Part shown: positions 8,266 to 46,875 of the stretch, piece by piece | Layout of the letters: each line of letters begins with the position of its first letter | Numbering within the stretch: the stretch's first letter is position 1 | NCBI GenBank assembly: GCA_012517875.1 | Contig: JAAYUB010000017.1 | Span: 148,943 to 200,952, forward strand | Source of the DNA: Acidobacteriota bacterium | GTDB lineage: Bacteria > Acidobacteriota > JAAYUB01 | Direction of reading: 5' to 3' | DNA length: 52,010 nucleotides | The notes under the pieces: generated by a model | What the model was told of the DNA's origin: nothing | The model's database searches: none | Seen by the model: only the letters and a program-made list of their open reading frames with translations | Program-made: the position numbers and the translations under genes

Positions 8266-9693
8266 CTACAGCAATCGCTTGAGGATCGTCAGATCGACCG
8301 CATCGATGGCGCCGTCCTGATCCAGGTCCGCGGCGGCGGCGGCCAGGTCGTCTGACCGGAGATTTCCCGCCAGGTAGTCAGCCAGCAGGATGGCATCCGC
8401 ATTGTCCACGGCGCCGTCCCCGTTCAAGTCGCCGACGAGCGCGCCGGCGGGCCGCTCGTAACAGCCGATATCCGAGGCGGCTCCCTGGGGCCGGGCCACG
8501 CCGTCGAGGTCGTCCGCGACCCCAACAAGCGTCAGCCCGTGATCCACCGCCCAGGCCGGTTCCGGCAGGTGGTGGTCGCCGCCGGGATCGATGAAAAGCT
8601 CCGCTGCCGTGTGCGACGCCGAGTGGACATCCTGGCCGGAGCCCGACTGCCACGCCGCCAGCGTCAGGAAGGCGTCGTCCAGGCTGATGCGGGTCATGAT
8701 GTTGTAGTCGCTCACCAGGCCGCTCAGGCTGCCCGTGTCCGTTTCCAAACCGCCGCGGGAACCGTCGTGAATGAGGATGTTGTTGAGGATCTGATTGCCG
8801 GTGGAGCCGTTGATCATGTTGAGCGCCCATCGCGCCGACGACGGCATGTGCACCGTGTTGTGGGCGATCAGGTTGTTCCGGCAGCCCCATTGGGTGCCCT
8901 GGCCGTCGTCCCACAGGGCGATCCCGCCGGCCTGATTCCCATAGATCAGGTTGTTGGTGATGCGGGACGTCCGCACCGACGCGAGGTTAATCCCGGCCCC
9001 GCCGCCCGCGCCGTTGGCGGTGACCACGTTGTACTCCACGCGGGCCTCCGAGCAGATCCCGTCGCCGCCCATGGACGGGTCGGCGTTGATCTGGATCCCG
9101 CAGCCGCGATTATGATGGCAGTAGTTGTGGCGGATGACCGCGTCGTCGCCACTGTTGCTGTGGTAGATGCCGTGCTCCTGGCTGGAGTAGGCGCACTCGT
9201 TGAACTCGGCGGTGAACGCCTCGGCGAAACCGGTGAAGATGCCCCACTTCTGGTTGTGGTGGCAGTGGCAGTTGCGGATGACCACGTGGTCCGCCTCGCG
9301 GATGTCGATGCCGGCCGATCCCGTGGCGCCCGTGACCTCGAATCCGTCGACCAGCCACCAGTCGTGGTTTTCGATGTTGATGACGCTGCCGTGCCAGTTG
9401 TCCGGCCCCGCCGTGTTGATCACCACGGACGCGCCGGCTTCGGCCCTGAATTGCACGGGCTGCCCCGCCGCGCCGGAGGATTTGGAACGGAAACCGGCAT
9501 AGGCCCCGCTGCGGACGAGCACGACATCCCCCGCCTGGACTTGGTCGGCGGCGCGCTGCAGGGTACGCCACGGCTGGGCGGACGACCCGGGACCGCCGTC
9601 GCTTCCGGCGGGCGAGACATAGTACGTCGCCGGCAAGCAGAATGCTCCCGCCACTACCAGCATGATCAGAATCAACCAACGGCGGCAACACAT
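8266..9693 (-). CDS. Secreted right-handed beta-helix protein with C-terminal dockerin-like module
   Basis: Exported protein of 475 residues. A cysteine-bearing N-terminus (MCCRRWLILIMLVVAGAF) acts as a signal peptide. The body has repeated short beta-strand turns rich in N, G and I (INIENHDWWLVDG, HVVIRNCHCHHNQ, ARVEYNVVTANG, SRITNNLIYGNQ, NNLIAHNTVHM), as in parallel beta-helix (NosD/pectate-lyase-like) proteins. The C-terminus carries two Ca-binding loops of dockerin type I form: GDLNGDGAVDNADA and DLDQDGAIDAVDL. GGAGGAAGC precedes the ATG. No cohesin or scaffoldin gene is present, so the dockerin may act as a generic calcium-stabilised tail or export-sorting module. Possible polysaccharide binding or lyase activity is unproven. 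Confidence 0.85.
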   Translation of the reverse strand: MCCRRWLILIMLVVAGAFCLPATYYVSPAGSDGGPGSSAQPWRTLQRAADQVQAGDVVLVRSGAYAGFRSKSSGAAGQPVQFRAEAGASVVINTAGPDNWHGSVINIENHDWWLVDGFEVTGATGSAGIDIREADHVVIRNCHCHHNQKWGIFTGFAEAFTAEFNECAYSSQEHGIYHSNSGDDAVIRHNYCHHNRGCGIQINADPSMGGDGICSEARVEYNVVTANGAGGGAGINLASVRTSRITNNLIYGNQAGGIALWDDGQGTQWGCRNNLIAHNTVHMPSSARWALNMINGSTGNQILNNILIHDGSRGGLETDTGSLSGLVSDYNIMTRISLDDAFLTLAAWQSGSGQDVHSASHTAAELFIDPGGDHHLPEPAWAVDHGLTLVGVADDLDGVARPQGAASDIGCYERPAGALVGDLNGDGAVDNADAILLADYLAGNLRSDDLAAAAADLDQDGAIDAVDLTILKRLL

Positions 9694-12478: not shown

Positions 12479-14284
12479 TCACTCCGCGAAACGGACCACG
12501 GCACGGACTCGGTTTTCCGCGATATCCAGGGCGAAGGTGCGGTACACCGCCAACTCCCCGCCGCCCACACGGATCAACCGGTCGGGCGGCCCGAAACGGT
12601 CCAGCCAGGCCTGGCGGTCGGACACGCCCACGGCGCCGTCCTCGACCAGTTCGACGAAATAGTCCAGCTCCAGGATCCGCAAGCCGTCCCCGCGGTAAAC
12701 GTTGCCGGCGAAATCCCCCACGTCGAACGGGATCCTCCGCATCGGCTTGAGCCGCCGCTCGATCTCGTCTGTCACCTCGCCCACGGGCACCCGCTCGGTG
12801 TAAAACACCTGCAAACCGGGACTCTGGCGGGCGGCCCGTTCCGGATGCGGCAGGCCCAGGACACGGCGCACTTCGTCAGCGTGCGGTCCCGTCGTCTCGA
12901 TCCGGAGGAACGCCTGCCGGGCCTCGCGAGCCGAGGCAGCCCGTCCCCGCTCGGCGAGGATGGCCGCCAGGTTGTACACGGCCGCCGCGCTGTCGGGACG
13001 ACGTTCGATGATCCCCTTGAGCAGCTCAATGGCGGCGCCGGAGGTGCTCAACCCGCTGTTGTCGCCCAGCAGGTAAAGCGCCACGGCCTTGGCCACGCCG
13101 ACGGCGGCGTCCGCCGGGTCCAGTTTCGATGCGTCTTCGGCGGCGGCCAGGGCCCGGGCGTACTCCCCCTTCAGGATGAACGCCGACGCCAGGTTCACCC
13201 GCGCCGGCACGTAGAACGGGTCCCGGTCGGCCGCTTCGCGCAGGCACCGGATCGCCTGGTCGAGCCGGCCGCTGAAGAGGGGGTCCTGCCGGTACTCCGG
13301 TCCCTCCTGGCGCCGGAGCTCGTAGCGGCCCGCCGGCGTGTACGGGTCCAGCAGTGCCGGCAGCTTGAAGCGCAGACTGTCGGCATGGCTCTGGAACGCC
13401 GGCGTCTGCCTCGCCAGCTCGTAGTAGCAGAAGCCCAAATTGTTGAACACCTCGCGTCCCGGAAAACGGTGGCTGAAGCGTTCCAGCAGCCGTACAGCGT
13501 CCTCGTAGCGGCCCAGTTGGGCGAGCCGGACGCCGAAGTGGAACAAATCCAACTCTTCAACCACCTGAACCATCTGGCTCCTCAGAAAAACGGCCCGGTC
13601 CGCCGGGGAGGGATGCTCGCCGCCTTCGGCGGCGGCGTGCGGCAGTTGACGGACCCATTGTTCGAAGAACGACTGGCCCCCGCCCAGGATGACCGCCGGA
13701 TCGTAGCCGGCGATGGTCATGTAGACGAGACCATAGCTGTCCGCTTGGAGCTCCTTGACCCGGACGACGCTACGGATAGACTCGCCCGAGTCGGCTGCGC
13801 CGCCGGCCTGGCCCAGCAGCTCCTCCAACAGCTGGCGCCGGTCTTCGGCGCCCGGATACTTCTGAAGCGCCATGAATGCGGAACGATGCCAGAAATCGTC
13901 CTTAGCCAGGTGGGCCAGTTCGTGCCCGAGGAGGAAGGCCAGCCGCGCGTCGCCGTCGGCGGGTGGGACATCCCGGTAGCACAGGCGCAGGCCGCCGGCA
14001 GACATGACGATGCTGCCGTCGGGTAGAGCGACGGCATGGGGGTCGCCGTCACCTCGAATCACCACCAGACCGGGCAGGCGGTTCCCTTTCTTGTCGGCGG
14101 CGGCTGCCACCCGCCCGAACACCTGTTCCGCCCGGCCCACCAGCGGTTCCTCCTGGATGGTCAGCAAGCCGAAGTTCCGGATCCACCAACCCGCCGAATC
14201 GGCGGGGTTGGCGTCCTGGGCGGAAAGTGTCATCGCCCAGCCGGTCAGGATGACGCTCGCGAGCAGAAGTCGGCGCATGGTCAT
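12479..14284 (-). CDS. Secreted M48-family metalloprotease with TPR repeats
   Basis: Zinc metalloprotease of the M48 (BepA/LoiP-like) type, exported by a signal peptide (MTMRRLLLASVILTGWAMTLSAQ). The catalytic block GHELAH (His121, Glu122, His125) is intact. The matching downstream zinc ligand should be the glutamate in KELQADSYG (about residue 180). From about 260 to 500 there are TPR-like helical repeats, and the last 100 residues are unassigned. The start codon overlaps the anti-sigma stop (ATGA), implying translational coupling. It is the last gene of the CHAT-sigma-anti-sigma cluster. In known systems M48-TPR proteins (BepA) perform outer-membrane quality control; here the linkage suggests a role in the sigma pathway. 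Confidence 0.85.
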   Translation of the reverse strand: MTMRRLLLASVILTGWAMTLSAQDANPADSAGWWIRNFGLLTIQEEPLVGRAEQVFGRVAAAADKKGNRLPGLVVIRGDGDPHAVALPDGSIVMSAGGLRLCYRDVPPADGDARLAFLLGHELAHLAKDDFWHRSAFMALQKYPGAEDRRQLLEELLGQAGGAADSGESIRSVVRVKELQADSYGLVYMTIAGYDPAVILGGGQSFFEQWVRQLPHAAAEGGEHPSPADRAVFLRSQMVQVVEELDLFHFGVRLAQLGRYEDAVRLLERFSHRFPGREVFNNLGFCYYELARQTPAFQSHADSLRFKLPALLDPYTPAGRYELRRQEGPEYRQDPLFSGRLDQAIRCLREAADRDPFYVPARVNLASAFILKGEYARALAAAEDASKLDPADAAVGVAKAVALYLLGDNSGLSTSGAAIELLKGIIERRPDSAAAVYNLAAILAERGRAASAREARQAFLRIETTGPHADEVRRVLGLPHPERAARQSPGLQVFYTERVPVGEVTDEIERRLKPMRRIPFDVGDFAGNVYRGDGLRILELDYFVELVEDGAVGVSDRQAWLDRFGPPDRLIRVGGGELAVYRTFALDIAENRVRAVVRFAE

Positions 14285-15321
14285 TCCCCGCGCACCAGCA
14301 GTCCGATATCCACCAGGGCGCGATCGATCCGGCGGAACGACGCGGTGTTCGGCAGCCCGGCATCGATCTGGCGGCGGATTTCTTCGAATGCGGCGGCGAC
14401 GCCCGGCGGTCCGCCTGCGGCACTCACATCGGCCACGAGGCGATCGATCTCGGCGTGCTTGAAATATGCGCCGCAGCCGGTTCGCACGGCGATTCGGCCG
14501 CCGCCGACCCAGGCGCCGAGTTCCATCCGGGCCGCGCCGCGGGCGCCGCCGGCGGTGAGGGTCCGGTCGAAGAGTGCCTCAGGCAGTTCCGTCATCTCGT
14601 TTTGGCGCAGGCCGACTTCGGCGCGGTCGTACCCGGACCGCAGTTCGGCCGTTCCACCCAGTCGATCCAGATCACGGCGGATGTGGGCCAGCGTTTCGGC
14701 GGCCGCCACCGGGTCGCCCGCCCGCAGGTGCAGCTCAGCCTCCACCCAGCGCAGGCCGAGCGCAAACCAGCCGTCCGCCGGCGGAGCGCCGAATCCGTAC
14801 GCCGCACCGTCCGGCAGCCGGATCTCCGCCGCCCAGGCAGAGGGAACCGTAGCCGGTCCAGCCATTGCCGCCCGGACAGAAGACAGGACAGTTGCCGGGT
14901 GCTGGACTTCCGCCAGACGATCCTCGCCGACAGTGTCACGACCGGATGGCGCCGGCACTGCCTGGTCCGGTGCGGCGACGGGCGTCGCCGGGACAACCGG
15001 GACGACCGCTGTCGGCGTCGGACCCGCCATCCGGATGGGCGCGATCGCGATGAGGACGGCGGCCAGCAACAGCGCGGCCGCAGCCGCGGCCGGTACGGCC
15101 CAGCGGGGCGCGGCCCGGAAGTCGCGGACCGGGGCCGCCGCCGGCGTCTGCCAGGCGGAAACGACCTCCTGGTTGAACGCGATGGCCCCCGCTGCCAGGT
15201 CGTAGCAGTCGGGGCACTGGTCCAGATGATCCACGATCATTCGCTGCCGGTCCTCGGCCAGGCGGCCGTCGGCCCAGGCGGCGATCTCTTCCAAATCTGG
15301 ACAGTTTGTGTGTTCCCGCAT
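14281..15321 (-). CDS. Membrane-anchored zinc-finger anti-sigma factor
   Basis: Predicted anti-sigma factor. The N-terminal zf-HC2/ZAS domain has Cys7 and His32-x3-Cys36-x2-Cys39 (DHLDQCPDC). One membrane segment follows (about residues 74-96, alanine- and leucine-rich), then a 250-residue extracytoplasmic part with no recognised domain, rich in charged helices. The topology, cytosolic sigma binding plus an outside sensor, is that of RsiW- and RskA-like anti-sigma factors removed by regulated proteolysis. It lies 67 bases after the sigma gene and overlaps the M48 protease gene by four bases, so sigma factor, anti-sigma factor and protease are probably co-transcribed. No separate site-2 protease was seen in the window. 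Confidence 0.82.
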   Translation of the reverse strand: MREHTNCPDLEEIAAWADGRLAEDRQRMIVDHLDQCPDCYDLAAGAIAFNQEVVSAWQTPAAAPVRDFRAAPRWAVPAAAAAALLLAAVLIAIAPIRMAGPTPTAVVPVVPATPVAAPDQAVPAPSGRDTVGEDRLAEVQHPATVLSSVRAAMAGPATVPSAWAAEIRLPDGAAYGFGAPPADGWFALGLRWVEAELHLRAGDPVAAAETLAHIRRDLDRLGGTAELRSGYDRAEVGLRQNEMTELPEALFDRTLTAGGARGAARMELGAWVGGGRIAVRTGCGAYFKHAEIDRLVADVSAAGGPPGVAAAFEEIRRQIDAGLPNTASFRRIDRALVDIGLLVRGE

Positions 15322-15388
15322 TTCTCTGATCCTCCCCCGGCGACAGCCGGTGTGGCGCTCATCGCATTAGACGGCCGCGCCCGACTGT

Positions 15389-16258
15389 TTAACCGGGTTT
15401 TTCCCCCGGATCCTCCCCGCCGCCCGCGTCTCCGCGGTCGGCGACGGCGTCGTCGAAGAAGTTCAGCGATTTACGGGCGTCCGCGCAGCCCAGCATCTCG
15501 TCTACGGACTCCCGCACCATGCGCCGGCGCACCAGGAGCCTGCGCAGCTGCTCCTGGATCTTCTCGAACCGCCGGTAGAGGGCGACCTGGTTGCCGCCGA
15601 ACGACCGGGCGAGCTGGGCCACGGTCAACCCGTCGACGTAGCGCAGCCGGATGAGCAGACGATCCTCGGCCGGCAGGTCCGCCAGCGCGTCGCGCAGGGC
15701 GGCGCTGAGCCGGGCGGACTGTTCCACGTGCCGGATCCGGCCCAGCTCCTTCTCCGCCGACTGGCTCCGCGCCGCCAAGTTCTCCACCAACTCCAGGGGC
15801 ACCAGCGTCGTCATCCGGCGCAGCGGCAACTCCGCCGCCAGCCGGAACAGCTCGTCCCGGTCGAGGGACTCCCCGTGGCGCGCGCGCAGGGCCGCGAATG
15901 CCTCTTCGAACGTGCGCCGGCCCCGCACCATGAGCTTTTCCAGCTCCACCGCCAGCGCGCCACGCTTGAGCGCGGCGGCCGACGGCCGCCAGCGGCCCTG
16001 CTCCTGGGCGATGTAGTCGAGGAGCAGGCGCTGGATCACCGTCACCAGGAAGGTCTGGACACTGCTCAACCCCCTGAATTTCCGCAGGACGTCGTAGTCA
16101 TTCTCCACGAGCCGGACCAGCACGCGCGAACGGAATTCCTCGAGCTCGTCCGCCGGCAGCCCCCGGCGGCGGCCCACCCACCGGATCACCCGCTCCACCT
16201 GCGGCAGGTTGCGGGTGAGGAAATCCTCGGGATCATGGATGGGAGGGTCTAGCGCCAT
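15389..16258 (-). CDS. Sigma-70 family (ECF-like) RNA polymerase sigma factor
   Basis: Alternative sigma factor of 289 residues. The region 2-like part (about 40-95: VLVRLVENDYDVLRKFRGLSSVQTF, then LLDYIAQEQGR) matches the core-binding and -10 recognition helices. Region 4 (about 190-240: LADLPAEDRLLIRLRYVDGLTVAQLARSF) ends in a helix-turn-helix. The linker between them is longer (about 90 residues) than in a minimal ECF factor. A 40-residue acidic tail (FFDDAVADRGDAGGGEDPGEK) follows. Its ATG lies inside the last codons of the CHAT gene, a 10-base overlap that favours co-translation. The zinc-finger anti-sigma gene follows. Target promoters are not evident. Confidence 0.87.
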   Translation of the reverse strand: MALDPPIHDPEDFLTRNLPQVERVIRWVGRRRGLPADELEEFRSRVLVRLVENDYDVLRKFRGLSSVQTFLVTVIQRLLLDYIAQEQGRWRPSAAALKRGALAVELEKLMVRGRRTFEEAFAALRARHGESLDRDELFRLAAELPLRRMTTLVPLELVENLAARSQSAEKELGRIRHVEQSARLSAALRDALADLPAEDRLLIRLRYVDGLTVAQLARSFGGNQVALYRRFEKIQEQLRRLLVRRRMVRESVDEMLGCADARKSLNFFDDAVADRGDAGGGEDPGEKPG

Positions 16259-19200
16259 TGTCCGTTCAACACGAAGCCCGCCCAGAAATAGGGGTGGCTG
16301 AGGTCCGGCGGTTCTCCGGTTGGTACCGTCGCCGCGATGCGGACCTTGCCGTCGATGAACTCCCGCTGGGCGAGCCGGGCGGCTTCGGTTTTGGCTCGGC
16401 CAGACTTGAGCTGGCGGTAGTAGAGTTTCTGGAATTCCGCCGTCGATGCGTCGGCGACGCTCCAGAGCGTAGACATCACCGTGCGCGCCCCGGCGTACAG
16501 GAAGGACCGGTTCAACCCCACCAGTCCTTCGCCGCCAAGCTCCCGGCCCCGGGCGGTATCGCAGGCGGACAGACTCACCTGCTCGGCATCGATCCGCACG
16601 TTCTCAAAAACCTCCCAGGCCTGGAGGAAGCCGTTGTCGCGGTCGTCACCTCCTTCCGCCGGGATGGTCAGGAGGAGCCCACTGTCCATAGGGCTCACCG
16701 GATTGTAAAAACCGTGGCAGGCAAAGTGGAGGTAGCCGGGTAGCCGATCCAGCGACTTCACCCGTTCCTCGCGGGCCTCGGCGCCCAAATACGCCACGTG
16801 GGCGCCGGGATACAAGGCGGCAATCCCCTGCACCTCGTCGCGCGACGCGGGCAGAGGCGGCACCGGGTCATCGCGGAGCACCCATCGGAGCAGTCGCCCG
16901 GCCGGCCCGCCGGCGGCCTGGCCCGGATAGTCCGGATCGCCGAACAGCACCACCGGCCGCGCAGTGCGCGGCGGCTCGTCCTGCAAGCCATCGGCGAATA
17001 CGGTCGCGGAGATCACGTATGAAACCGGTTTCTCTTCGATCAGGTAGCGGTTCGTGGCCAGACCCAGCGCGGCGAACGGCAGCATGTGCAGTGGTCCGTC
17101 GGGGCACACCACGATGCGCTGCGAGCGTCGCACCAGATCATCGACGGGCGCCACGAATTGCCGGTACAGGGCGTGAGCCCGGCCCATCAGCCGAACTTTT
17201 CGGCTGGCGGGATTGCTGAGCATGGCGAGATAGTATTCCACCGCTTCCTGCACCTGCTGCCGGCCGAGCGGAACGGACTCCACCCGCAGCTGGCCGTTCA
17301 GAAGGGCGAACAGGTGGGTGGCTCGCTCGCTCACCGCGTAGGACAGAAACAGGGTGTCCCGTCCCATCACCGCGGCGACCTGCTCCGCCGTCAGCGTCTC
17401 CGGCGCCCGCAACGCCGCCAGGCGGGGAGACGCTTTGCGAATGGCCTCCCAGACCAGGGCCTGCTCGCGGCGACGCTCCGCCACCAGGCGCCGGCGCTCC
17501 GCGATGCGTTCCGGCTCCCTGTCGGGGCTGAGCTGCATCAGCTCATCCTGCGCCTCGCGGCAGCGGGTGCGCGCGGTCTCCAGGCGCTCCAGCAGTTCGC
17601 CCGGCACATCGCGGGAAAAGTCCAGATCGCGCTCGGCCATCATGGCCAGCAGGCTGCGCGCGCGGAAGCGCTCCAGGACGTCGAACGCGCCCCGGGGGTC
17701 GTTCAACAGCAGTTTCAATTCCAGCACATCTTTGTAAAAGCCGGCATACTCGGCGGCGAAGGCTTCGGCAATCTCCCGGCTGCCGCCGAGCTTCTCCAGC
17801 TGTCCCTCGAGCGCGGCCACGGCGCGCTCGTAGCAGGCCAGAGCGTCTGGCAGCCGATCCTGGCGGCGGCGAAGGTCTCCCAGCAGGTGTTGGGCCGCGG
17901 CCTCGTCGATGGTCAGAGGCGCGATGGCGGCGAAGATTTTCAACGCCGGCTCCAGCGCCGGCTCGGCGGCCACCAGGTCGCCCCGCCGCAGGCAGGCGTC
18001 GCCCAGTCCCCGGAGGCAGCGGGCCTCATAGAGGCTGGCCGGGGCAACTTGCCGCGCCATGTTCAGCGCGGCCTGGTAGTGGGTTTCCGCCTGGACCGGG
18101 TCGCCGCTCTCCAGGCGAATGGCGCCCAGAGTGATCAGTGTGCGGAGTTGATCCAACGGATCGTTCGATACCTGTTTTCGGATCGCCGTCGCTTCCTGGT
18201 GGCGCGATTCGGCCAGGTCAAACTTGTTTTCCAGGCGGGCCAGATTGCCGAGTTGTTCTTGGCAGTCCGCGTATTCCCGTGAGCGCGGAGCCTTCCGCTC
18301 CAGAATTTGCAGGGCGTGGTTGAGGTATTCCGCCGCGGCCGGGAGATCCCGGCGTGCCATGTAGATCTGACCGATGTTGTAGTAGGAACGGGCCAGGCTG
18401 ATGCTGTCCGGCTCCAACGCCAGCTTGATTTTCAGAGCCTGCCGGTGGTAATCCTCCGCCAGCGCCAGATCGCCCCGCAAGCGGGCCACGGCGGCCAAGT
18501 TGTTCAGGGTGTACGCCACCGCCATCGAATCCGGATTCTGCGACTGCTTGAGTCGGAGGGATTCCTCAAAATACTGCTGGGCCTTGATCTGATGGCCGGC
18601 CTTGGACGCGTTGACGCCCAGCGTGTTCAGGATGTTCGCTTCCGCGGCATGACCCGGCAGGTGGCGCCGGTGGATCGCCAGCGCTTCCAGGAGGCAGCGG
18701 TCGGCGGCGGCCAGGTCGCCGGTATTGGAATATGCCGTGGCCAATGTCGTCAGGGAGACGGAAACGATCATGGAATCGGACGCTACTTCCCGGCGGATCG
18801 CCAAGGCGTTCTCGTAATATTGGACGGCTTCAGGCCAGCGGACCATTTGCCAAGCGCAGTGGCCCAGGCCGGTCATGCTGTTGGCGCGGCCCAGCTCCCC
18901 GCCGTCGTGCGCCCACGCGGCCAGCGCCTTCCGATGGACCTCCATGGACAATTCCGGCCGTTTGTCCTGGCGCAGGAGTTCGCCCTGCATGTCCCAGATG
19001 ATGGGTTGGAACCGCCCGGCGGCCACGGCGGCCAGCGCGTCGGCGCACCGCCCCAGGGCACCGACGGCGGCCGTCCACCGTTTGGCCTCAGCCAGAGCCT
19101 GCCCGGACCGGAAATGCAACCAGGCCGCCGTCACCTGGTCGCCCCGCGTGGCCGCTTCAGCAGCCCCGGTGCTCCACCGCGCCACGGCACCGTCCACGTC

Positions 19201-19611
19201 CCTGGCTTCAAGCAATCGTTCCCCCTCCTCCTGCGCCACACCGGCCTCGCCGGATAGCGCAGGGCGAACCGAGAGCCGCCACTCGTATGCCGGAATCGCC
19301 ACCCAACGCTCGGTTTCGCCGCGACGCACCAGGATGTCAACGCCGCCGCGGGGTGCGTGCAGGATCTCCACCTCGCGGAGATGGAAGTATGAGGTCAGCG
19401 ACTCATCCCTGCCCGCCACGCCCGCCACACGCCGCCAGCGCAGCAGCACGTCGGCGGGCTGGACGCCGGCCTTGGCCATGGCGAAGCCCGCCTCGGCCTT
19501 CACGACGGTCAACCCCGCAGCCGCCGGCGGCGAATCGCCCGCCCGGACTCCCGCGGTCCACATCAACCAGAATAATCCCAGACCAATCGCCGTCCCGATC
19601 ACTCTGTTCAC
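16249..19611 (-). CDS. Secreted PDZ-TPR-CHAT peptidase-like protein
   Basis: Large (1120-residue) exported protein. The order is: signal peptide (MNRVIGTAIGLGLFWLMWTAG); a PDZ-like domain, about 33-115 (GFAMAKAGVQPADVLLRWRRVAG); a long array of tetratricopeptide repeats, about 125-640 (repeated A-Y-N-G motifs such as MAVAYTLNNLAAVARLRGDLALAEDYH); a coiled helical linker; and a C-terminal CHAT domain, about 750-1120. The clostripain/caspase-like dyad is present as His966 in YLHFACHGFYNP and Cys1017 in VSLSACDTARG, so it should be catalytically competent. GTG 19611 is used because AAAGGAG precedes it. CHAT proteases include separase-like enzymes and the TPR-CHAT partner of gRAMP/type III-E CRISPR, but no CRISPR element occurs here. 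The overlap with the sigma gene ties it to that pathway. Confidence 0.88.
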   Translation of the reverse strand: MNRVIGTAIGLGLFWLMWTAGVRAGDSPPAAAGLTVVKAEAGFAMAKAGVQPADVLLRWRRVAGVAGRDESLTSYFHLREVEILHAPRGGVDILVRRGETERWVAIPAYEWRLSVRPALSGEAGVAQEEGERLLEARDVDGAVARWSTGAAEAATRGDQVTAAWLHFRSGQALAEAKRWTAAVGALGRCADALAAVAAGRFQPIIWDMQGELLRQDKRPELSMEVHRKALAAWAHDGGELGRANSMTGLGHCAWQMVRWPEAVQYYENALAIRREVASDSMIVSVSLTTLATAYSNTGDLAAADRCLLEALAIHRRHLPGHAAEANILNTLGVNASKAGHQIKAQQYFEESLRLKQSQNPDSMAVAYTLNNLAAVARLRGDLALAEDYHRQALKIKLALEPDSISLARSYYNIGQIYMARRDLPAAAEYLNHALQILERKAPRSREYADCQEQLGNLARLENKFDLAESRHQEATAIRKQVSNDPLDQLRTLITLGAIRLESGDPVQAETHYQAALNMARQVAPASLYEARCLRGLGDACLRRGDLVAAEPALEPALKIFAAIAPLTIDEAAAQHLLGDLRRRQDRLPDALACYERAVAALEGQLEKLGGSREIAEAFAAEYAGFYKDVLELKLLLNDPRGAFDVLERFRARSLLAMMAERDLDFSRDVPGELLERLETARTRCREAQDELMQLSPDREPERIAERRRLVAERRREQALVWEAIRKASPRLAALRAPETLTAEQVAAVMGRDTLFLSYAVSERATHLFALLNGQLRVESVPLGRQQVQEAVEYYLAMLSNPASRKVRLMGRAHALYRQFVAPVDDLVRRSQRIVVCPDGPLHMLPFAALGLATNRYLIEEKPVSYVISATVFADGLQDEPPRTARPVVLFGDPDYPGQAAGGPAGRLLRWVLRDDPVPPLPASRDEVQGIAALYPGAHVAYLGAEAREERVKSLDRLPGYLHFACHGFYNPVSPMDSGLLLTIPAEGGDDRDNGFLQAWEVFENVRIDAEQVSLSACDTARGRELGGEGLVGLNRSFLYAGARTVMSTLWSVADASTAEFQKLYYRQLKSGRAKTEAARLAQREFIDGKVRIAATVPTGEPPDLSHPYFWAGFVLNGQWR

Positions 19612-19661: not shown

Positions 19662-19670
19662 ACTATAGCA
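19662..19670 (-). promoter_or_regulatory. Extended -10 promoter for the CHAT-sigma cluster
   Basis: On the minus strand TG-C-TATAGT (19670-19662) forms an extended -10 element about 50 bases before the GTG at 19611. No convincing -35 was found, which is usual for extended -10 promoters. Confidence 0.4.
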
Positions 19671-19783
19671 AATGCCGCCGCAAGAGAACACCGGCAAAAC
19701 AGCCGCGGGCGGCGGCAGCCCATGGCCGCCGTCGCCTGCCGTACACTGGCATCTGTGCGCCTGCCGCCCGACACGGGACGGGG

Positions 19784-20707
19784 CTATTTGTCGATGTTCT
19801 CCGCGGGGATGGAAATCTTGCGACCCTGGTCGGTCAGCTCCAGCGTCCCGAACCCGCCGGTGATGAGCTTGCGCTGTTCGAATGTGCAGAGCCGATAGTA
19901 GTACTTGCCATCCGTGTCCTTGTACAGCGCCGCTGCGGCGATGTGGCGCCCGACGATGGGGCTGTCGCCGCCCGATGCCCGGTCGTACCACCAGTCCTTG
20001 TCCACGATGTGGATCCGATGCACGCCCGGCCAGCCGCCGTTGAGCAGGAGCTTTCGCATGGCGGCCTCCAGCTGCTTGTCGGTCATCTTGGCCGGCGGCA
20101 GAGTGGCGGCCTGGGCGTCGGCATTGAGGTACTTCTGGTTCAGGCCGGTGTAGTAGGCGTAGTTGTTCCCTTGAATGGTGAATGATCCTTCGGCGTGCTT
20201 GGTGCCGAAGTCGCGCACGTAAATCTGCACGGTGTGGGACCCGGTCGCGAGCTCACCCAGGCGGAAGGTGAAACCGATGGGGCCGATCTTGCGGTTGCCC
20301 TTCCCCTCGCCGAAGACCATATTCGGGTCCTTGTAAGCGGTCATCCGGGCCGGTTCCGGGGCAATGTCGAGGACCATGAACCGGTTGTTGACCAGCGGGC
20401 CCTTGAGGGTGATGTACTGATACTCCAGCATGTCCTGGTCGTCGATGGCCATGACCACCATCACCGGGATTTCCGTCTTGCCCGAGTACAATTCCCGCCA
20501 CGTTTTGTCCACCACCATCAGGCCGTAGATGGGATCACCGGCCTGAAAACTCTTCGTCAGGTTGGCTGGGTTGTTCGGGTCGATGGGCGTCTTGGAGAAA
20601 TAGACGCCGGCGCCCGGCAGCGTGGCCGAGGCCGCCGGATACACTGCCAGCACGGATACCAGCACCACGACGGCGCCGAGTCGTTTACATATCGTTAACT
20701 TGTTCAC
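19784..20707 (-). CDS. Secreted protein of unknown function
   Basis: I do not recognise this 307-residue protein. It has a signal peptide (VNKLTICKRLGAVVVLVSVLAVYPAASA), a beta-rich middle with repeated hydrophobic strands (VMVVMAIDD, HTVQIYVRDFGTK) and an alpha segment (TDKQLEAAMRKLLL). The C-terminal block, about 230-307, contains VHRIHIVDKDWWYDR, a conserved-looking GRHIAAAALYKDTDGKYYY and CTFEQ. GTG 20707 is preferred over the ATG at 20734 because GAGAGG lies upstream and the signal peptide then has the normal length. It follows the lipoprotein gene by 23 bases, so the two probably form one operon, and it precedes the CHAT operon by 172 bases. Confidence 0.7.
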   Translation of the reverse strand: MNKLTICKRLGAVVVLVSVLAVYPAASATLPGAGVYFSKTPIDPNNPANLTKSFQAGDPIYGLMVVDKTWRELYSGKTEIPVMVVMAIDDQDMLEYQYITLKGPLVNNRFMVLDIAPEPARMTAYKDPNMVFGEGKGNRKIGPIGFTFRLGELATGSHTVQIYVRDFGTKHAEGSFTIQGNNYAYYTGLNQKYLNADAQAATLPPAKMTDKQLEAAMRKLLLNGGWPGVHRIHIVDKDWWYDRASGGDSPIVGRHIAAAALYKDTDGKYYYRLCTFEQRKLITGGFGTLELTDQGRKISIPAENIDK

Positions 20708-20730
20708 GCTAATTGCCTCTCTGGAACCGC

Positions 20731-21255
20731 TCACTGAATGCCGAGACGCTGGGCTTCCGCCGCGCTCTGCTTCTTCAACAAATCAAAGTTGAAATATTGC
20801 GTGAGAATGTTGAAGCTGGCGATCTGGTTGGCCAACTCGTTGTCCAGGCTCATGTAATGCTGCTGGATGTCGGAGTACGCCTGGAAAGACGGGCCCGCCG
20901 CCCGTTCGAGGCCGAGACTTACCCGCATGTCGGCGGTGGCGCGGTCCGCTGCCCCCAGCGCCTCCCGCTGGCGTCCCAGGCTCACCAGCTTCTGCACATA
21001 CGCCTCCTTGAGTTGCACCACCTTGTCCTTGACCGCCGCCGGTGCCGGCTTGTCCTTGAGCAGCGCCACCAACTCGCTCATCGCCTGGCCGTATAGATCG
21101 GCGGCCGCGTTGCCCAGGTCAGCCGGCGACCGGGGCTGGTCCAACGCGGACGCATCGTTCGCCGCCGTCTTGGTGGCGGGTGGCCCTCCACAGCCGATCA
21201 TCACCACCGCTGCCAAGACCAGGGTCATCAGGGTGAGGCACATTTTTCGATTCAT
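20731..21255 (-). CDS. Predicted lipoprotein of unknown function
   Basis: 174-residue lipoprotein. The N-terminus MNRKMCLTLMTLVLAAVVMIGCGG ends in a lipobox (MIGC) with Gly at +2, suggesting outer-membrane sorting. The mature part is almost entirely helical and charged (LYGQAMSELVALLKD, VKDKVVQLKEAYVQKLVSLGRQREAL), so it may form a helical bundle; no domain is recognised. AAGGAGG lies just upstream of ATG 21255. It sits directly upstream of the secreted 307-residue protein and is probably co-expressed with it. Confidence 0.75.
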   Translation of the reverse strand: MNRKMCLTLMTLVLAAVVMIGCGGPPATKTAANDASALDQPRSPADLGNAAADLYGQAMSELVALLKDKPAPAAVKDKVVQLKEAYVQKLVSLGRQREALGAADRATADMRVSLGLERAAGPSFQAYSDIQQHYMSLDNELANQIASFNILTQYFNFDLLKKQSAAEAQRLGIQ

Positions 21256-21595
21256 GAATCCTCCTTGCGTCAGATGGGGCGAGCCCCACGATTTGAACAG
21301 CCCGGCACACGGATCCGTTGCGTCGGAAGTCACCGCCACGTCGGGTCATTCATTGGCCAATAGACGGGCCGTAGGTTCGGGATTATCACTATTTTTTGAT
21401 GGAATTCCGGGCCGGATTGCGCTCGTGCCGGTGGACCCGGGAGTCGGTGACACCTGCCAAGCTCTGAGGCGGAACCGTTCGGCCAACCGGCCGTTGACCG
21501 CCACCCGCATCTCCTGAGTTTTGCGTTTCACTCTTCATCGCCTCTCGCGGCGGTAGGAGGCGTGACAGCTCTTCCGGCGAGCGCCGGTTTCAACG
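21256..21595. other. 340-base intergenic region without a supported gene
   Basis: Gap between two lipoprotein genes on the minus strand. It contains the ribosome-binding site of the 20731-21255 gene. A TGATAAT-like -10 on the minus strand (around 21384-21391, next to an A/T run) could serve that gene but lacks a -35. A short minus-strand frame of 61 codons (21346-21531) has no ribosome-binding site and no recognisable features. I see no RNA gene. Confidence 0.4.
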
Positions 21596-22540
21596 TCAGT
21601 GCGGATAGGTTTGCTCGCCGGCCCGGATGGCCACCGGCAAGCGGTTCTCCGCCGGTGGGATGGGGCAGTTGTAGGCCGGCGAATAGTTGCACAGCGGATT
21701 GTAGGCCCGGTTGAAATCCAGCACCAGGGTCTCGCCGGCGGGCTCGTCCAGATCGAGAAAACGTCCGGCGGGATAAGTCTCGTTCCCCGTCGTGGCATCG
21801 GTGAACGGCACAAAGAGGGTGCGGTCGTCCGACGCACCCGTGGCGGACTTGAACGCCGCCAGCACACAGGCCGCGCCATCCAAGGTGAAGTGGAGCCGGG
21901 CGTAGCGGACGAACCGCTTCTCCATGTTGCGGCTGGTCAGCATGACCACCGTTTCGGGATCGGGCAGCCGCTCCAGGCGCGCCGGCACGGCGAATGCGCG
22001 GTCCGGCGGGAAGTACAGGAGCCGGCGGAACTCGCGGCGCTCGCGCCGGGCGGGATCGAACACGATCAGGGTCAGTCCGTCGGCGCCGGGGTACGCCGCG
22101 AGGGTGAATCGCTCCAGTCGGAAGCGGATCCCGTCGCTCAGCGGACCGGGCGGAATCGGACTACGCGCCACCTCGGCCCAGCCGCCGGGCGCCCGGGATT
22201 CCCACCGCCACTGGCCGTCCGCCAGGCTGAACACCAGCGGATCGTCCGGTCCGGGCGGCGCCGTCGACGCGACCGAGCCGGCCGCCACCCGCAACCCGCC
22301 GCCCGGTGCCGCAAGCGTCAACCGCGCCGCGCCGGCCATGGGCGACAGCGCGTCGGTTGCGAACTCCCGGTCCTTCGCGGTGCGGTCCGCTTCGAGGGCC
22401 TTCCGCCAGGCGGCCGCCTGCTCCGCGGGAATGCCGCTGGAATCCCGGCCGCAGCCGGCTCCGATCACGGCCGTGGCGACCAGCAGCGCCAGCCGGCGGA
22501 TCCCGCAACCGATATTCCCCCGCATCCGGATTGTGTTCAT
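21596..22540 (-). CDS. DUF1684 lipoprotein
   Basis: Lipoprotein of the DUF1684 family, 314 residues, function unknown. The signal peptide ends in a lipobox (VIGAGC). The C-terminal third shows the family pattern: TDATTGNETYPAGRFLDL, VLDFNRAYNPLCNYSPAYNCPIPPAENRLPVAIRAGE, with two conserved cysteines that may pair. The N-terminal half is less conserved (DGQWRWESRAPG, DGIRFRLERFTLAAYPG). ATG 22540 begins MNTIRMRGN, whose cysteine-tailed hydrophobic stretch fits a lipoprotein signal; the longer frame to 22591 does not. It is divergent from the alpha-mannosidase gene. Confidence 0.88.
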   Translation of the reverse strand: MNTIRMRGNIGCGIRRLALLVATAVIGAGCGRDSSGIPAEQAAAWRKALEADRTAKDREFATDALSPMAGAARLTLAAPGGGLRVAAGSVASTAPPGPDDPLVFSLADGQWRWESRAPGGWAEVARSPIPPGPLSDGIRFRLERFTLAAYPGADGLTLIVFDPARRERREFRRLLYFPPDRAFAVPARLERLPDPETVVMLTSRNMEKRFVRYARLHFTLDGAACVLAAFKSATGASDDRTLFVPFTDATTGNETYPAGRFLDLDEPAGETLVLDFNRAYNPLCNYSPAYNCPIPPAENRLPVAIRAGEQTYPH

Positions 22541-22640
22541 GTGGTGCGCCCCCGCAGTGATTCCGTGTTCCGGATGGTACCACGGGGGCACCGCCCAGGC
22601 AATCCGCTCGCTGCGCTCCAGGCGCCGCTGAAAAAAGGGA

Positions 22641-45402: not shown

Positions 45403-46875
45403 TCACTCGCGGTAGTGTTCCATCACCCGCAGCACAGCCCGCTCGCAGACCTTGCAGAACGGCTTGTCGCCCTTGGAGAACATCAGGCAGTCGAGCATGG
45501 GCCGGTAGAGGCCCTGGCTGGAGTAGCCGGCACCCTCGAACGCGCCCACCTTTCCCGCGAAGGCGCTGGCGGCCAGGAACGCGTCCAATTTGTCGGAGTG
45601 TTCTTTGGACTGGCGCTCCGCTTCGGCCTTGAGGCGGGCCACCTCGTCGGCCGGCGCGCCGTCGCGCATGGCCTGGGCGATCCGGGCGTCCAGCTCGCCG
45701 CGCGTCTTCTGCCCGGCGGCGGCCAGCGCGTCATATTCGGCCTTCTCCCATGGCGTGGGGACGGCGGTGCCCGGCGTGACGCAGTCAACCCACTTCAGGC
45801 GCGCCGGATCCAGCAGGGCGGTGATGTTGGGCTCGGTGGGCTCCACGCCGGCGGGGTAGAAATCGTTGTAGGCCACCGCCGACGTGTAGTACTCGTCGGC
45901 CAACCCGGCGAAGGAGTGTCCGAACTCGTGGAGGAGCAGGTAGGCGTGCCACTGGTTGTCGCTGGTGAAGGTGCAGAAGAAGTTGTAAATCCCGCCGCCG
46001 CCGTAGCGCGTCTGGTTCACCATGATCAGGATGGCGTCGTAGGGGACGTGGGCGGCGGTGTCGCGCACCGCCCGGTTCTCCTCGGTGAGCATGTAGCGGT
46101 CCAGCCCCAGCGAGTCGAATGAGGCGCCCAGCGCGTTGCGGCGCCACACGCCGCGGCTCGGCTCGTCGCAGCCCGAGTCGGCCGAGGGGCGGAGCACGCC
46201 GCGGAAGTTGAACCAGTCGCGGCGCGACTTGTACGGCTCGAGGGTGAAGAACACGTCGACAAAGCGGCGCAGGTCGGCGCGGAACTTGTCCGCCTCGGCG
46301 GCGGTGTAGCCGTCGCCCAGCACCACGATGTCCACGGAGCTGTGGGGATCGCCGCCGGTGTGCGCCTCGACGACGATCGCATCGGCGGCCAACGGCGTCC
46401 GGTCGACGGTGACCGCGGTCGGGTCGATCGCGGCGGCGAACAGCGGCCGCAGCGTCCGGTCCCTCCCCCGCACCTCGAGGGTGAAGCGGACCTTCTGCCG
46501 GGGACAGGGGAACAGGGCGGTCTCGTGGAAGGTCCGGCGCACGCCCTCGCCGGCCGGGCCGGTGGTCTTGTACTCGCCGAAGTAGCTGTCGAATCCCTTG
46601 GAGTAGATCAGGAGTCCCGACGCCGCGTCATACACCTTCACGTAGTAGTTCCCGGTGTTGAAGGGATCGATGAGGTGCTTGCGGCTGCCGGCCCAGATCC
46701 CCTGCCGGTAGACCTTGTCCAGGGTGACGAGTTCCTCTGTGGCATGGCCCACGTGGTAGTAGTCCACCCGCAGGGTCTCGTCGACGAAATAGGTGTCGAA
46801 ATCCGGCGCCTCGCCGGCGGCCGGGATCACGCCGGCCAGCGCGGCGACAGCGGCGATGAGGATCAGTGCGCGCAT
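45403..46875 (-). CDS. Secreted M64-family (IgA peptidase-like) metalloprotease
   Basis: 490-residue exported zinc protease. Signal peptide MRALILIAAVAALAGVIPAAG. An N-terminal M64 beta domain (about 25-150) precedes the catalytic domain, with SVDIVVLGDGYTAAEADKFRAD and the zinc site LLHEFGHSFAGLADEYY (His316, Glu317, His320). Family M64 is named for the IgA1 protease of Clostridium ramosum, but most members act on unknown proteins. A charged, coiled segment (about 375-430) interrupts the C-terminal part. GGAG precedes the ATG. It lies 100 bases after the phosphatase gene on the same strand. Confidence 0.92.
   Translation of the reverse strand: MRALILIAAVAALAGVIPAAGEAPDFDTYFVDETLRVDYYHVGHATEELVTLDKVYRQGIWAGSRKHLIDPFNTGNYYVKVYDAASGLLIYSKGFDSYFGEYKTTGPAGEGVRRTFHETALFPCPRQKVRFTLEVRGRDRTLRPLFAAAIDPTAVTVDRTPLAADAIVVEAHTGGDPHSSVDIVVLGDGYTAAEADKFRADLRRFVDVFFTLEPYKSRRDWFNFRGVLRPSADSGCDEPSRGVWRRNALGASFDSLGLDRYMLTEENRAVRDTAAHVPYDAILIMVNQTRYGGGGIYNFFCTFTSDNQWHAYLLLHEFGHSFAGLADEYYTSAVAYNDFYPAGVEPTEPNITALLDPARLKWVDCVTPGTAVPTPWEKAEYDALAAAGQKTRGELDARIAQAMRDGAPADEVARLKAEAERQSKEHSDKLDAFLAASAFAGKVGAFEGAGYSSQGLYRPMLDCLMFSKGDKPFCKVCERAVLRVMEHYRE

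Follow-up and report, generated by a model that had tools for sequence, protein, structure and literature searches.

Four open reading frames lie side by side on the minus strand of the window (the whole stretch of 52,010 nucleotides that was analyzed, from a 4.0-Mb draft genome of an Acidobacteriota bacterium). In the direction of transcription, they encode a CHAT protein of 1120 aa (16249–19611), a sigma factor of 289 aa (15389–16258), an anti-sigma factor of 346 aa (14281–15321) and an M48 metalloprotease of 601 aa (12479–14284). The CHAT and sigma genes overlap by 10 nt and the anti-sigma and M48 genes by 4 nt, and a gap of 67 nt separates the sigma gene from the anti-sigma gene; these coordinates agreed with the overlaps and the single gap described in an earlier note on this DNA. 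The layout is that of one tightly packed operon.

The 67-nt gap (15322–15388) has no known function, and its identity across three species was 94–96%, compared with 82–89% at the third codon positions of the four genes. It is possibly a regulatory element; its predicted RNA fold was not significant (z −1.33). Another gap, of 172 nt, precedes the CHAT gene and holds a conserved extended −10-like box, TTTGCTATAGT (19662–19672, minus strand), a candidate that could possibly serve as the operon promoter. Further upstream, three genes conserved in the genus run in the same direction (19784–22591), possibly as part of the operon, and were characterized by sequence, Pfam and synteny as encoding a secreted protein of 316 aa, a lipoprotein of 202 aa and a DUF1684 lipoprotein, the first two without any Pfam match. 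The flanking genes scanned in the window were metabolic, transport or envelope genes. Among other products encoded in the window are a beta-helix protein that bears a type I dockerin domain (8266–9693), here in an Acidobacteriota genome, and a metalloprotease of the M64 (IgA-peptidase) family including its N-terminal domain (45403–46875).

The CHAT gene starts with GTG, and its product carries a signal peptide (residues 1–24, MNRVIGTAIGLGLFWLMWTAGVRA, 19540–19611) that was called by eye and hydropathy and that corresponds to a helix at residues 2–23 of the structure model. Residues 121–735 (17407–19251) form a TPR superhelix according to Pfam and the model, and residues 812–1117 (16261–17178) matched the CHAT domain PF12770 with E = 1e-59 and 202.8 bits (cut-off 24). 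Direct reading of this domain revealed an intact dyad, H966 (FACHG, 16714–16716) and C1017 (LSACD, 16561–16563), which is kept in both sister species. The region between the signal peptide and the TPRs (residues 33–117, 19261–19515) had no Pfam match in the window protein; it appeared as a small alpha/beta domain in the structure model, and PDZ_6 was the best match, sub-threshold and in the same register, in all five more distant relatives, which makes a PDZ-like domain probable. Hence, the TPRs, the dyad and the signal peptide of the earlier description stood, with its PDZ-like domain reduced to a probable one. The protein is predicted to be an exported cysteine peptidase of the PDZ-TPR-CHAT type. 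The structure model, built on an alignment of 8 sequences, was poor over the CHAT part, and its PDB matches were discarded as a guide to structural identity, as they reflected only the TPRs and a separase-like layout. In another genome (G053), CHAT genes were seen in tandem arrays (loci L111, L123, and L125), and this genome gave 37 matches to the window CHAT protein.

The sigma factor is of the ECF type. It passed the TIGR02937 model (64.6 bits, cut-off 42.9), and its sigma2 and sigma4 regions scored just below the cut-offs in Pfam. An identical protein (100%) was found in the metagenome-assembled genome JPNA_maxbin.176, and proteins with 92–94% identity in sister species labelled Acidobacteria/Acidobacteriota. 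When named genomes were scanned with a four-row sigma alignment, the family was detected mainly in Acidobacteriota and Gemmatimonadota. A separate search of 396 Acidobacteriota genomes gave hits in 37. Two variants were observed within the family: a sigma factor with a C-terminal extension of about 600 residues including a hydrophobic segment (L077:6958–9615), and paired adjacent sigma genes at four loci (L188, L189, L168, and L211).

The third gene encodes a membrane-bound anti-sigma factor whose N-terminal head (residues 12–39, 15205–15288) matched zf-HC2 (PF13490) with 26.7 bits (cut-off 22.2) and contains H32-x3-C36-x2-C39. In the structure model, the head superposed on ChrR with 0.7–0.8 Å over 49 residues, and also on RsiW. 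It is followed by a single transmembrane helix (residues 76–98, 15028–15096), by a flexible linker outside the membrane with pLDDT below 50 (residues 100–141, 14899–15024), which is the putative cleavage region, and by an all-helical outer domain (residues 146–343, 14293–14886) for which a PDB search gave no match at E ≤ 0.001. The zinc-finger head, the one membrane helix and the outer part had all been noted before and were upheld here. The HxxxCxxC head, modelled in the anti-sigma fold, together with the transmembrane helix places the protein in class I (zf-HC2) of the anti-sigma factors, and we infer that the head holds the neighboring sigma factor.

The M48 protein matched PF01435 (36.9 bits, cut-off 20.3) and contains HELAH at 13910–13924. 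E178 and D182 were invariant in the M48 alignment, and the downstream glutamate ligand was found. The N-terminal signal peptide, MTMRRLLLASVILTGWAMTLSA, was again called by eye and hydropathy, and TPRs are present, in agreement with what had been seen before.

Conservation of this gene set was analyzed, as its absence from related genomes had been named as a reason to give up the idea of a common pathway. The four genes were syntenic in three species belonging to a single genus of Acidobacteriota, with the whole set and its flanks in one sister species (G001) and up to the contig end in the other (G002). In the genus, the dN/dS ratio was 0.12–0.20 for the CHAT, sigma and M48 genes and 0.31–0.44 for the anti-sigma gene. 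G003, another genome from this family, contained CHAT relatives and lacked the sigma factor. The conservation of the M48 gene, which the earlier note had proposed to check, turned out to be limited: M48 genes accompany this sigma family in only three lineages among the 396 Acidobacteriota genomes, all of these loci encoding HExxH, and no copies besides the known ones were found in the classes of the two other genomes concerned (G030 and G171).

The linkage between CHAT and sigma genes was surveyed from both sides. Around the sigma genes of 75 non-redundant loci of the window family, 15 CHAT genes were found within 300 bp, 5 at 0.3–1 kb, 4 at 1–2 kb, 5 at 2–4 kb and none at 4–9 kb; the rate ratio for 0–2 versus 2–9 kb was 11.7, with p = 3e-9, a value that is only indicative because the loci are related. 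Ten of the 75 loci had an anti-sigma factor and neither protease nearby. Conversely, an ECF sigma gene was present within 2 kb of 45 of 83 Acidobacteriota CHAT genes, a sample selected by similarity and not at random, in which the density of ECF sigma genes per kb-side was 0.33 within 300 bp and 0.01–0.03 beyond 2 kb (7.9-fold enrichment, p = 5e-12). In 34 same-strand sigma/CHAT pairs, the product encoded directly after the sigma factor was a zf-type candidate anti-sigma factor (14 pairs), a zinc-less transmembrane protein (11) or a zinc-less fusion (2); two cases whose hydrophobic stretch was the CHAT signal peptide are left out of these counts. It could be argued that these genes are neighbors by chance, since CHAT and ECF genes abound in this phylum and matches to the window CHAT protein can number as many as 37 in a single genome. 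Nevertheless, the 24 CHAT genes within 2 kb against none at 4–9 kb in the same loci, the conservation and the fusions described below leave this explanation almost no probability. Synteny, the dN/dS values of 0.12–0.44 and the linkage statistics indicated an association of the four genes beyond chance.

Quick trees with long branches were calculated for the CHAT and sigma proteins. Most CHAT proteins linked to the window sigma family, zinc-less fusions included, fell in one clade of 27 (97% SH-aLRT). The CHAT protein of the window genus was placed in a separate PDZ-CHAT clade (98%) together with those of loci L040–L045, and the window sigma factor belonged to the common family, nearest to that of locus L075. 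A CHAT protein of a different clade thus stands beside a sigma factor of the common family, and the CHAT partner was therefore probably replaced by a distantly related one with the link to the sigma factor kept.

Furthermore, the anti-sigma factor and the CHAT protein were found in one frame directly after the sigma gene at 11 loci, in the order zf-HC2, membrane helix, TPR and CHAT. Four of these fusions were scanned with Pfam, and in all of them zf-HC2 and CHAT scored above the curated cut-offs and TPR matches were present. Two loci with the anti-sigma and CHAT parts in overlapping frames (L148 and L171) are left out of this count, and the fusions come from several families, so that a single assembly error cannot account for them. 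Locus L075 (G030) has, after the sigma gene, one frame of 645 aa with the order zf-HC2, transmembrane helix, M48 and TPR and with 36% identity to the window M48 protein; a CHAT domain is not proved there, because the next TPR protein is cut off by the contig end. At L142 (G171), sigma, anti-sigma and M48 genes follow one another, and 137 bp from the sigma gene lies a divergent CHAT gene. A second kind of fusion was also observed, in which CHAT follows a zinc-less anti-sigma-like head and a transmembrane segment beside other ECF sigma genes (L128:6680–10348 and L132:4525–8076).

In relatives, either protease is found fused to the anti-sigma factor, and it is therefore very likely that both belong to the switch. 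The functional coupling of the proteases with the sigma/anti-sigma pathway, the broader part of the mechanism proposed in the earlier note, is thus well supported by linkage and by the new pairing with an unrelated CHAT, and most of all by the 11 CHAT fusions and the one M48 fusion. Its narrower part, a site-1 cut of the anti-sigma factor by one of these proteases, is a proposal whose chance we put at roughly one half.

The fusions as such also bear on the possibility that CHAT and M48 are effectors, that is, outputs of an autoregulated sigma factor that degrade damaged or foreign envelope proteins while a generic protease cuts the anti-sigma factor. Autoregulation is common among ECF operons, and an M48 protein with TPRs resembles the BepA-type proteases of envelope quality control, by a weak NCBIfam match. 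However, there would be little reason to fuse an effector to the protein that inhibits its own sigma factor, and such fusions were observed 11 times for CHAT and once for M48; in addition, the box upstream of the CHAT gene resembles a housekeeping extended −10 rather than an ECF box, which is weak evidence. An effector role is, overall, distinctly unlikely.

The topology was consistent throughout, with CHAT and M48 carrying signal peptides when encoded separately and lying C-terminal of the transmembrane helix when fused. For group ECF54, whose genomic context includes CHAT, subtilase and carboxypeptidase genes, it was suggested that CHAT degrades the sigma factor itself (PMC8999054). That suggestion concerns sigma factors without an anti-sigma factor, and one is present here; moreover, a CHAT protein with a signal peptide or beyond a transmembrane helix would be separated from the sigma factor by the membrane. 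Degradation of the sigma factor is accordingly very improbable at this locus.

The catalytic state of the CHAT proteins was then compared. The His/Cys dyad was kept in 25 of the 29 sigma-linked CHAT proteins, the window protein among them, and both residues were lost in four fusions of one clade (L151, L158, L161, and L162); peptidase activity is therefore usually, but not always, retained, and CHAT can remain in the pathway without it. At L161, the adjacent sigma gene is broken by a stop as well. For that clade, the dyad-less fusions favor the explanation that the CHAT-TPR and M48-TPR parts are sensory or scaffold outer domains for a ligand or misfolded protein, with the site-1 cut made by an unlinked envelope protease and the catalytic residues of little importance. 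The four fusions retain their architecture and sigma neighbor, and many anti-sigma factors of the family bear only TPR-like repeats outside. RsgI-type anti-sigma factors, in which fused binding or enzyme domains serve as sensors, provide a precedent. Nevertheless, the retention of the dyad in the great majority and of HExxH in every M48 locus, the recruitment of two unrelated protease folds and the purifying selection on CHAT and M48 in the genus (dN/dS 0.12–0.20) make a purely sensory role rather unlikely as a general explanation.

The best explanation, to which we give an even chance, is an envelope-sensing sigma/anti-sigma switch equipped with its own proteases. At rest, the anti-sigma head would hold the sigma factor. 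An envelope signal would be read by the PDZ and TPR parts, and the CHAT peptidase would then cut the anti-sigma factor in its linker (residues 100–141) or in its outer domain, and M48 would be a second protease, a trimming one or an alternative. Cleavage within the membrane by a generic M50 site-2 protease would subsequently free the sigma factor; M50 proteases are encoded in the genome (best E 2.2e-62). In the fused relatives, the cut might occur in cis or between adjacent copies. A universal catalytic role of CHAT is disfavored by the four dyad-less fusions and by the 10 loci that have an anti-sigma factor and neither protease, and the restriction of M48 to three lineages of the sigma family also counts against the explanation.

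To our knowledge, few pathways have an identified protease for the site-1 cut of a membrane anti-sigma factor, and the switch, if real, would add two further protease types, including a caspase-like, exported one. The function of many uncharacterized CHAT genes of Acidobacteriota would also become testable, and the fusions lend themselves to such tests, as the protease and its presumed substrate share one chain. A literature search that covered only a minority of the subscription papers, and is thus no proof of novelty, gave no account of a zf-HC2 anti-sigma factor with a fused CHAT or M48 domain; nothing was retrieved that joined "CHAT domain" with Acidobacteria, or an anti-sigma factor with a fused peptidase domain in Acidobacteria.

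Compared with known systems, the locus shares with RseA/DegS/RseP-type proteolysis a membrane anti-sigma factor, an envelope protease with a (here probable) PDZ domain and an M50 protease in the genome, but DegS is a trypsin-like serine protease, whereas the candidates here are a caspase-like CHAT and an M48 protein, co-encoded or fused. BepA and other M48-TPR envelope proteases are likewise exported M48 proteins with TPRs, although the NCBIfam BepA match of the window protein was weak (14.9, cut-off 570) and the M48 proteins here are encoded beside an anti-sigma factor or joined to one in a single chain. As in ECF54, a CHAT gene is conserved beside an ECF sigma gene and proteolysis is proposed; that proposal places the action on the sigma factor without an anti-sigma factor (PMC8999054). 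In the type III CRISPR system CalpL/CalpT/CalpS, a dedicated protease also starts a transcriptional response by cutting an anti-sigma factor, CalpT, a cut that is only inferred here, but CalpL is a SAVED-Lon protease of a soluble system responding to cyclic oligoadenylate (PMC11229360, PMC11417357).

The closest parallel is Craspase, the type III-E (CASP) system of Cas7-11, Csx29, Csx30 and CASP-sigma, in which the TPR-CHAT protease Csx29 cuts Csx30, which inhibits an ECF-like sigma factor (PMC10028731). A TPR-CHAT protein, an ECF-type sigma factor and an inhibitor are thus common to both, and the window CHAT domain was detectably related to the solved Csx29/TPR-CHAT chains. Nevertheless, it scored 22.5 bits with the NCBIfam Csx29 equivalog (cut-off 300), neither Cas7-11 nor Csx30 was found beside it, no Cas gene was present among the flanking proteins scanned, and a scan of the locus for defence families matched only generic TPR. 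Craspase is cytoplasmic and RNA-guided and Csx30 is not a zf-HC2 membrane protein, whereas CHAT is predicted to be exported here and the anti-sigma factor to be membrane-bound. The claim of the earlier note that a caspase-like CHAT enzyme acting as site-1 protease in a sigma pathway would be new has to be corrected in view of Craspase (PMC10028731) and of the ECF54 proposal (PMC8999054): cutting of a sigma inhibitor by a TPR-CHAT protease was already known, and what is new here is the envelope location and the anti-sigma/protease fusions. More speculatively, and with more doubt than belief on our part, the locus might represent a large unrecognized class of switches that respond to envelope stress in Acidobacteriota and Gemmatimonadota, and in which an on-board or co-encoded CHAT (or M48) is the activating, partly self-cleaving site-1 protease; the Craspase cascade might then be a specialized offshoot of an older CHAT-sigma partnership. 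The proposed switch, if real, would suggest a background outside CRISPR for the CHAT-sigma logic of Craspase.
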